From Kofleriaceae bacterium (lineage in GTDB: Bacteria > Myxococcota_A > Polyangia > Haliangiales > Haliangiaceae), in the NCBI GenBank assembly GCA_018057825.1, contig JAGPCY010000028.1, positions 1 to 64,000 on the forward strand: a stretch of 64,000 nucleotides of DNA, given 5' to 3'. Shown here one piece after another: positions 213 to 10,203 of the stretch (positions are counted from its first letter, which is position 1; the number at the start of each line of letters is the position of its first letter). A program made the position numbers and the translations under genes. Below the pieces are notes generated by a model. That model worked only from the letters and a program-made list of their open reading frames with translations, searched no databases and was not told where the DNA came from.

Positions 213-3182
213 ATGGCCGAAACTGCCCGCCCGACCGCCGAGGAGTTCGACGAGCTTGCCGCGATCCTCCGCCGCGATCCGACGTCGCCGGCGTTCGTGG
301 ACTATGCCCAGGCCCTCTTGGCCCTCGGCCGTCCACGCGAGGCGATCGATCAGGCCACCGCCGGGCTCCGCCACCACCCCGACAACCACGAAGGCCGCCT
401 GGTCCTCGCGCAGGCCCTCGCGGCGCTGCACCAGTGGAAAGAGGCCCAGGCCGAGCTGCTGCGGATCGTCAAGGTCGACCGCACGAACAAGGCCGGCTTC
501 ACGCTCCTGGGCGAGGTGCTCTTGCGCCGCGCCGACTACGAGCGCGCGACGCCGGTCCTGCAGCACGCGCAGAACCTCGACCCGAGCAACCCGACGGTGT
601 TGTCGCTCCTGCGCGCCGCGCGGGCCGGCCAGGCCCTGCCGCCGCCGCCGCCGCTCCCGACCCCGATCGCCCCCCGCCGCGCCGAGCCGCGGGCCCCGGC
701 TGCGCCGCCCCCGCGGGCGGTGGCCCCGACCCGTCCGCCGCCGCCGGCTCCACCCCCGGCCCGACCGGCCGCTGCCGCCAGCTTCGCTGACGACGCGCCG
801 ACCGCGGTCTCCGACGACTTCGCGCCGCCGACGTATCCGAGCGCCGATCCCAGCGCGGACCTCGTGATCGCGAGCGCGAGCCCGGGCCGCGGCGATCCGA
901 CCCTGCCGTCGTCGCCGCCGGCCCACATGGCCGGCCCGTCGTATCCTTCGCCGGCGTATGCTCCGCCCGCCGCGCCGCCCATGGCCGCGCCGCCCATGGC
1001 CGCGCCGCCCATGGCCGCGCCACCGCCGCGCCCGAGCGCGCCGCCGCCGGCGTATTCTCCTCCCGCCGCGCCGCCCCCGATGCAGCCTAGCGGCGAGCCG
1101 GTGCGGCCGCGGCTGGTCGCGGGCGCGAAGCCGGCCAACGCCGCCGCGGCGGCGCTGCGCCAGTCGGCGGCGGTCGGCGAGACCTACCTGAACGATCTCC
1201 TGACCGGCGGCCTCCTCGACGTGCCCGGTGTCCGGGTTCCGGACGTCGAGTACGATCTGCGGCCCGATCGGCGATGGGGGCGCTCGACGATGCGCGCCTT
1301 CATCGTCCTGTTCGTGCTGCTGGTGGTCGGCGCCGGCGGCGGGGGCTACTGGTACTACCGCACCGAGAAGCAGCGCGCGGCCGACGTGGTCCGGCTGCGC
1401 GACGAGGCCAAGACCCTGGCCGCCACCGGTTCGCTCGACGGCCTGACCGCCGGCCTCGACCGGCTGGCCGCCGCGCTCAAGCGCGACGGCAAGAACACCC
1501 GCACGTTCGCCGCGGTCGCCGAGCTGCAGGCGCTGCGCGCGCTCCTGTACGGGCTGCCGCCCGACGGCGTCGATCAGGCGATCGCGGCTGCCGCCCGCAA
1601 GATCACCAAGCCCGACCAGGACGGCTACCGCTCGCTGGTGATCGCGCGGACCGCGCTGGCCCTGGCTCGGCTCTACAGCGAGGACGGCAACGACGCCAAC
1701 GCCGCCACCCTCGAGGTCCTGACCAAGGCCCGGGCCGAGATCGACGCCTGGGTCACCGATCACCCCGACGACCGGTGGGCCCGCTACCTCGCGGCTCGTG
1801 GGCTGCTCGCCGCCGGCGCCCGGGCCGCGGCGGCCGACGCCTTGCGCGCGGCCGGCGATGGCGCCGACGGCCTGGCGGTCGCCGCCGTCGAGCGCGCCGA
1901 TCTCCTGGTCGACGACGGCAACTACGACGAGGCGATGCCGATCTACGAGGCCGCGCTCACCGCCGCGCCCGATCACCCGCTGGCGCTCCTGGGCCGCTCG
2001 CTGGCCCTGGCCGAGCGCGGCACCGATCCGACCGCCGCGATCGAGGTGCTGAACGTCAAGCTCGACAAGCCGCTGGGGGCCCGCGGCGACGGCTACCGCC
2101 ACCTCGCGCTGGCGATGGCCTTCTACAACCGCGAGGAGCCGCAGCGCTTCGCCGACGAGCTGGCGCGGGCCAAGGGCTGGCGCGAGCCGCGCTTCCTGGC
2201 CCGGGTGGCGCTGGCCCGCGCGCTCCAGGGCCGCCTGGCCCAGGCCGCGACCGCGCTCGGCGCGGTCAAGTGGTTCACCGCCGCCAAGCCCGATCCGGAT
2301 CCGCTGGTCGCCCTGGTCAACGGCGCGCTCCAGCTCGCCGGCGGCACCCCCGAGGCCGCCCTCGACACGCTGAGCAAGCTGGCCGGCACCCGCGCCGAGC
2401 TCTTGCGCGGGCTGGCGCTCATCGACCTGGGCAAGTACGGGGAGGCCCAGACCGAGCTCGAGGCGGCCCAGGGCCACGCGCCCGACTCGACCGAGATCAA
2501 GGTGTGGCGCCTCATGGCCCAGACCCTGGCCGCCACCGGTGGCGCTCGCGACACCGCGGCCGCCGAGCTCGAGAAGGCGTCGCGCAAGCCCAAGAGCAAG
2601 ATCGGCCGCCACGCTCACGGCATGACCATGCTGCTGCTCGGCAACACCGAGGAGGCCCGCCGTCGCCTCGAGCAGGCCCTCGAGGATGTGTCCGACGCGC
2701 AGCCCAACCCGGTGGCGTATCGGACCCGGATCGGCCTGGCCGCGATCGAGCGCGGCGCCGGCAACCTCGACGCCGCGTTGACCCAGGTCGACGAGGCGCT
2801 GAAGGTCAACCCCGGCTACCTGCCGGCGCGGATCGAGAAGGCCCGGGCCCTGGTCGCCCGCGGCGACGGCGACGCCGCGGTCGCGGTGCTCGAGCCGGTG
2901 ATGGCCGAGGCGGAGCTCTTGACCGGGCCGGTGGATCTGCTCGCCGCCGAGGCCCTGATCAAGCGCGACCAGCGCAAGCTGCGCGAGAAGGACAAGGCCG
3001 AGCTGCGGGCCCAGGCCCGGGCGCTCCTCGAGCGCGCCAAGGGCAAGGGCGCCGACGCCGCCGAGCTGGCCCGGGTCGCCGAGCTGGTCGAGCCGGGCCT
3101 GGCCGCGACCCTCGGGGTCGCCACCGCCGAGGAGCCCGCGCCGGCGCCCAAGCGACCGACCCGGCGGCGCCGGGGGCGGTGA
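213..3182 (+). CDS. Large TPR-repeat membrane protein
   Basis: This is a 989-residue protein. Residues about 10-140 form TPR-like helical repeats. A Pro/Ala-rich linker of about 200 residues follows and contains three exact copies of PPMAA near residues 256-270. One transmembrane segment lies at about 360-380 ([18 protein letters not shown]), and the remaining 600 residues are again TPR-like helical hairpins. The likely topology is a cytoplasmic linker region and a long periplasmic TPR scaffold, or the reverse; the sequence does not settle which. No catalytic motif is visible, so a scaffold role in a protein assembly is inferred. The stop overlaps the GTG of the next gene (GTGA), so the two are probably translated together. 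A TAGTGT hexamer lies 12 nt before the ATG. Confidence 0.9.
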
Positions 3183-3652
3183 TCGTGCTCGCCCGCACCG
3201 GGCGCCTCGCGTTGGCGGCGTCGGTCGCCGCGGCGTGGCTCGGGTGTGGTGACGAGCGCCGGGCGCCGGCGCCAGCGCCCGCGGTCGCTGCGACCGAGCC
3301 GACCCCCGCGCCGCGGGCGCGCCCGCCGGAGCTGGCCTACCTGACCCTCAAGGTCCTGGGCATGACGTGAGTGGAGAGCTGCGTGCGCCGAGCGCGGTCC
3401 GCGCTCTCCGTCCTCCCCGCGGTCTACGCCGTCGGTCACGATCTCGATCGCGACGAGCTGTACGTCAGCTACGACGCGCGCGCCGGTGACGCCAAGGCCC
3501 TGGCGCCGGCGCTGATCGACGCGGTGCGCGGCGCCGGCTTCGATCCCTGGCTCAAGGGGCCGGGCTGGCCGAGCCCGGCGCCCGAGGCCGTGGTGCTGCC
3601 GGCGCTGCCCGCCGAGGCGCCCGAGGGGCCGAGCGTCCCCGCGCCGCGCTAG
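3179..3652 (+). CDS. HMA-domain lipoprotein, candidate selenoprotein (in-frame TGA)
   Basis: Read through the TGA at 3368-3370, this frame gives 157 residues. A signal peptide ends in the lipobox WLGC (Cys 23), followed by a Pro/Ala linker and then one heavy-metal-associated (HMA) domain. The first HMA strand (LAYLTLKVLGMT) lies before the TGA. The second metal ligand, first helix and remaining strands (VESCVRRARSAL, then DLDRDELYVSYD and AVRGAGF) lie directly after it in the same frame. The TGA falls where HMA domains carry the first Cys of their metal-binding loop, giving GMT-U-VESC, a CxxxC-type spacing. Neither half would fold alone. A SECIS-like hairpin follows the TGA. The start is GTG 3179 (GTGA overlap with the TPR gene); GTG 3185 is also possible. 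The alternatives are a nonsense-mutated gene or a separate gene starting at GTG 3371. Confidence 0.65.
3373..3409 (+). promoter_or_regulatory. SECIS-like hairpin after in-frame TGA
   Basis: Starting 2 nt after the TGA, GGAGAGC (3373-3379) pairs with GCTCTCC (3403-3409). A single bulged U (3380) follows, and then GCG (3381-3383) pairs with CGC (3400-3402). The 16-nt loop can form a further GCGC/GCGC stem with loop CGA, centred 21 nt from the TGA. Size, position and bulged U resemble bacterial SECIS elements, which sit immediately downstream of the UGA. Hairpins are common in GC-rich coding DNA, so this is supporting evidence only. Confidence 0.5.
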
Positions 3653-9753: not shown

Positions 9754-10203
9754 TCAGGGCGCGACACCGACGGCGGTGGCCAGCGCCTCGGTCACCGCGG
9801 CGCCGCTCGTGCGGGTCAGGACCGCGGTGCCGTCGGGGGTGCGTAGCTCGACCACCGGGGCGTCGGCGCAGCGATCGAGGCACGACCGGACGCCGATCGC
9901 GAAGCCGCCGTGGCGCTCGAAGGCCGCGGCGGCGGCGTCGAGGCACTCGAGGGCGCCCCAGCTCTGGCACTTGCCGGCGCACACCACCGCGGTCACCGGC
10001 GCGGTCGGCAGCTCGAGGTCGGTGGCCAGGGCGACCGCGGCGTAGTAATGGCTGACTGGCTTGCCCTGCTCCTCGGCGAGGGCGATCACGCGCGCCGGCG
10101 TGACCGGGCCGTCCTCGGCCAGCTCCTCGAGCTCGAGGCCCAGGCCGGGCAGGCGCGCCGGATCGAGGTCGCGGTGGGTGGGCGAACGGTTGGGCGTGTT
10201 CAT
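9754..10203 (-). CDS. Thioredoxin-fold 2Fe-2S protein (NuoE-like)
   Basis: A 149-residue protein. The N-terminal half is helical with Tyr-Tyr (SHYYAAVAL), as in NuoE-type proteins. The C-terminal half has the thioredoxin-like ferredoxin layout: VVCAGKC, a further Cys in GALEC, and CLDRCADAPVV. Four of these Cys would ligate a 2Fe-2S cluster. It is far from any complex I genes, so a stand-alone redox role is more likely than NADH dehydrogenase. It lies 14 nt after the sigma factor gene and may be co-transcribed. TATGAC sits 6 nt before the ATG. Confidence 0.75.
   Translation of the reverse strand: MNTPNRSPTHRDLDPARLPGLGLELEELAEDGPVTPARVIALAEEQGKPVSHYYAAVALATDLELPTAPVTAVVCAGKCQSWGALECLDAAAAAFERHGGFAIGVRSCLDRCADAPVVELRTPDGTAVLTRTSGAAVTEALATAVGVAP

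Follow-up and report, generated by a model that had tools for sequence, protein, structure and literature searches.

Selenocysteine (Sec) occurs mostly in redox enzymes, and examples in which it likely acts as a metal ligand are rare and have been little tested. Published tables list a Sec-containing MerP, a cation ATPase with a UxxC motif and a UxxU metal-binding protein, the Sec-containing MerP having been listed from Global Ocean Sampling data (PMC2398784). As MerP, UxxU and MerT/CopZ-type selenoproteins are already catalogued, the HMA fold in a selenoprotein is not in itself a novelty. What is new at the locus described here, which lies in a 64,000-nucleotide window (the whole stretch of DNA analysed) from a Kofleriaceae bacterium, is the UxxxC spacing, the predicted lipoprotein form and the linkage to a TPR protein. 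The first-pass annotation of this DNA had called a metal-binding selenolipoprotein tied to a large TPR protein unusual, which holds for these three features but not for HMA selenoproteins in general. The selenoprotein reviews consulted describe no HMA protein with the U-x-x-x-C motif, and a text search of a 2026 review (PMC13188914) returned neither UxxxC nor UxxxU.

No curated NCBIfam model reached its cut-off with the window protein, the nearest being CopZ, MerP, UxxU_metal_bind and MerT_CopZ_Se. MerP (TIGR02052; PDB 1osd, 1afi) resembles the window protein in its HMA fold, GMT-(C/U) loop and the extracytoplasmic location predicted for the latter, but its CxxC motif is one residue shorter; at 24.8 bits versus a cut-off of 92.55, the window protein falls below the curated threshold for MerP membership, and it is not encoded in a mer operon. 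The UxxU_metal_bind (seleno)protein (NF041115) is likewise a small protein of the HMA type whose metal loop contains Sec, with UxxU spacing instead, and the window protein scored 20.2 bits against its cut-off of 95. MerT_CopZ_Se (NF045683) is a selenoprotein that shares with the window protein a CopZ/HMA-like domain in a metal-handling context; however, this domain is fused to a MerT-like part (235 positions), whereas the window protein is a lone putative lipoprotein (17 bits versus 375). CopZ/Atx1-type copper metallochaperones (PDB 2qif, 6ff2) share the HMA fold, and their Cu(I)-binding loop occupies the corresponding position. These metallochaperones are cytosolic, carry CxxC and lack Sec.

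The HMA gene (3179..3652, + strand) starts with a GTG overlapping the TGA stop of the upstream gene (GTGA) and ends with TAG, and its frame has a single interruption, a TGA at 3368-3370. Reading through this codon gives a 157-aa product with a signal/lipobox-like leader, a Pro/Ala linker and an HMA domain, in which GMT stands directly before the TGA and VESC after it, as previously described. In the lipobox proposed together with this frame, the candidate lipidation Cys (3245..3247, +) of the window copy sits in an atypical WLGC; several orthologues have better, canonical versions (LVAC, LAAC, LAGC, VTGC). The upstream gene (213..3182, +) encodes a 989-aa membrane protein with Pfam TPR matches, a low-complexity region rich in Pro and a single hydrophobic segment in the middle, between the N-terminal and C-terminal TPR parts; it is kept across the family. 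Downstream lies a gene for an ABC-F type ATPase, which was not found beside the orthologues at the loci examined. The window neighbours are not mer genes, and the genes adjoining the HMA gene do not indicate any particular metal.

The read-through protein matched the Pfam HMA profile (PF00403) over its full 62 positions with 28.9 bits (cut-off 24.8), compared to 23.6 bits for the segment after the TGA alone. An AlphaFold2 model of the domain reached a pLDDT of 95.4 and displayed the ferredoxin-like order of strands and helices. Foldseek ranked oxidised MerP (1osd) first among PDB entries, most of the next matches were copper-binding HMA domains, and the closest profiles and structures were all those of Cu, Hg or Zn binding proteins. 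The TGA (3368..3370, +) occupies the first metal-loop position (GMT-U-VES-C) and a TGC codon (3380..3382, +) supplies the second, the Cys of U-x-x-x-C. This (U/C)xxx(C/U) loop, one residue longer than the classical GMTCxxC, was present in 25/25 aligned members, and when the protein was aligned by sequence to PDB chains among the matches listed, the extra residue opened a gap of one position at the metal loop.

A six-frame search of 30 Kofleriaceae genomes gave matches in 24. The TGA was found at the exact codon in each of the seven genus members sampled (GMT-TGA) and at the same codon in one genome of a sister genus (G008, L037; GVT-TGA-PEEC), i.e., in eight orthologues including the window copy. 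Another 13 orthologues have Cys at this position, in agreement with the earlier proposal that the TGA stands where the first metal-binding Cys belongs: 12 from the sister genus read GM(Y/T/N)C-x-E-S-C and one more (L025) reads HMDCAETC. No residue other than Sec (TGA) or Cys occurred in this column among the aligned family orthologues. The TPR gene lies directly upstream of nearly all family HMA genes at loci with enough upstream sequence, so that the suspected pairing is conserved, and since it does so for Sec and Cys forms alike, these genes are orthologues and not chance HMA matches. In a poorly resolved tree of the domain, the U/C label requires at least three changes, and the G008 sequence with TGA splits off immediately outside the twelve sister-genus Cys forms. 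The dN/dS ratio after the TGA was uninformative, probably owing to the restriction of third positions to G or C, save for the closest pair (0.13). As judged from these sequences, the comparative evidence (TGA conserved in eight orthologues, Cys in 13) is decisive for the TGA being real, and we put the probability that it is decoded as Sec at about 95%. That this decoding takes place in an HMA-fold protein is also very probable.

The window's genome (8.9 Mb, 99.7% complete) encodes all four components of the Sec machinery that the first-pass annotation had named for a check. SelA scored 524 bits and SelB 276 bits (cut-off 242), the latter with two SelB winged-helix domains (wing_2, wing_3) and a beta-barrel. 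The tRNA-Sec gene (selC) scored 75 bits and was called independently by ARAGORN (tRNA-SeC). SelD scored 305 bits (L046, G000:C18:293-1237), and its frame carries its own TGA near the start, apparently at the active-site position (GGGUAAK). Overall, tRNA-Sec was above the cut-off in 26 of the 30 family genomes; in one Sec-form genome (G028), none was above the cut-off in the draft assembly. Another family genome has two tRNA-Sec matches of equal score 7 kb apart on one contig (G010:C163:3030-3125 and 10027-10122).

A stem-loop resembling a bacterial SECIS element is predicted directly after the TGA (3373..3409, +). The 42 nt following the TGA fold at -23.1 kcal/mol, the stem begins 2 nt past the TGA and U3380 of the TGC codon is unpaired, so that the hairpin with a bulged U noted earlier is present, while its identity as a SECIS is likely but not proven, the signal over background being modest. 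In 500 synonymous recodings, the stability of the native hairpin was never reached; dinucleotide shuffles gave a modest z of -1.7 (14/200 as good), and an equally strong fold follows 5% of all TGA triplets in this GC-rich window. An Rfam scan of the site returned chance matches only, with no SECIS or other credible family. RNAalifold on the eight Sec forms gave a shared 7-bp hairpin (3390..3406, +) of the type GRGYGCG-NNN-CGCGCUC, with one-sided changes that keep the pairs and no doubly compensated pairs in this 8-sequence alignment. Within this hairpin, the second Arg of RVRxAL is encoded by CGG in 8/8 Sec forms, compared to CGC or CGT in the Cys forms with Arg there. CGG makes up 7-29% of the Arg codons in the relatives' TPR genes and 30% in five window genes. 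The difference between Sec and Cys forms (8 vs 12) gave a Fisher p value of 8e-6, in a test that treats the rows as independent, which they are not. This CGG, specific to the Sec forms, fits a nucleotide-level constraint tied to Sec. Every computational check suggested in the first-pass annotation gave a favourable result, and its main claim was correct.

The TGA could alternatively be a true stop, giving a truncated protein and a separate product by reinitiation at the GTG at 3371, which directly follows the TGA and opens a 93-aa ORF. However, this GTG is not conserved, with CTG, CCG or ATG in the other TGA-form orthologues, the Cys forms are one continuous gene, and termination here would cut the HMA fold within its metal loop, all of which makes reinitiation very improbable. 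A lone in-frame stop in a single genome would look the same in a pseudogene or after an assembly error, but the same TGA was found in eight assemblies, the flanking protein is conserved and Cys is the sole alternative, leaving this explanation with hardly any weight. Reinitiation, pseudogene and assembly error were thus rejected on the orthologue evidence.

The main competing explanation concerns the role of the protein and accepts Sec: the Sec-Cys pair might form a selenenylsulfide switch or act as a reductant in the periplasm. Most catalogued selenoproteins are redox proteins (PMC2398784), and the top structural match is an oxidised form, here of MerP. The motif, however, lies in the metal loop of an HMA domain whose nearest profiles and structures bind metals, and no redox partner gene adjoins the HMA gene in the window; we consider a redox role possible but rather unlikely, and binding of a soft metal the probable function of the window protein.

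For Sec decoding combined with metal binding, the following sequence of events can be proposed. SelB with Sec-tRNA(Sec) would read the UGA at 3368-3370, aided by the stem-loop after it, and the product, judging from its leader, would be exported and lipid-anchored. Its single HMA domain would present a GMT-Sec-x-x-x-Cys loop in place of the usual GMTCxxC, and a soft metal ion (Cu+ or Hg2+) would most likely be coordinated in the periplasm by the Sec selenolate together with the Cys thiolate of this loop. The bound metal may be scavenged or passed on, next to the periplasmic portion of the TPR membrane protein from the neighbouring gene, with which the putative HMA lipoprotein presumably cooperates. 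Compared to CxxC HMA domains, affinity and geometry should be altered by the additional loop residue and by selenium. CxxxC, UxxxC and UxxxU occur naturally in one and the same small domain, which is easy to produce, so that it could be measured directly how selenium affects metal affinity and selectivity. Another selenoprotein is gained with this locus, one whose gene would be split at the TGA by automatic annotation.

Wider searches were performed for related loops. Scanning the whole phylum with a sequence pattern revealed no additional HMA frames beyond the family; a hit required GMT as well as a CC dinucleotide (Pro) behind the second ligand, so that divergent frames, the window copy among them, are missed. 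Scanning viral contigs for GMTU-x-(E/D)-x-(C/U) returned unrelated frames only, relatives of the UxxxU form were also not found there, and plasmids gave no match. One distant relative (G017) has GMTCPESC with a TPR gene upstream. In another family of the order (G032; L061, G032:C40), a membrane-anchored HMA protein with GMTURSGC is a further UxxxC candidate, with no TPR match in its short locus. Double-Sec loops (GMTUPSGUPP, GMTUASGUPP and GMTUPDAUPP) were found in G019 and G021; these UxxxU relatives scored up to 68.2 bits with NF041115 with one inserted residue, still below the cut-off of 95. We give even odds to the proposal that these proteins form an unnamed Myxococcota HMA clade with a longer loop, in which each ligand is Cys or Sec (CxxxC, UxxxC, UxxxU), acting as a selenolate-based trap for metals or metalloids on the envelope, with a dedicated TPR partner in Kofleriaceae. 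The loop of the G019 and G021 proteins is one residue longer than that of the catalogued UxxU family, and each of the two genomes encodes two paralogous small UxxxU HMA proteins (G021: L044/L087, G021:C15, and L099, G021:C83; G019: L042 and L045).
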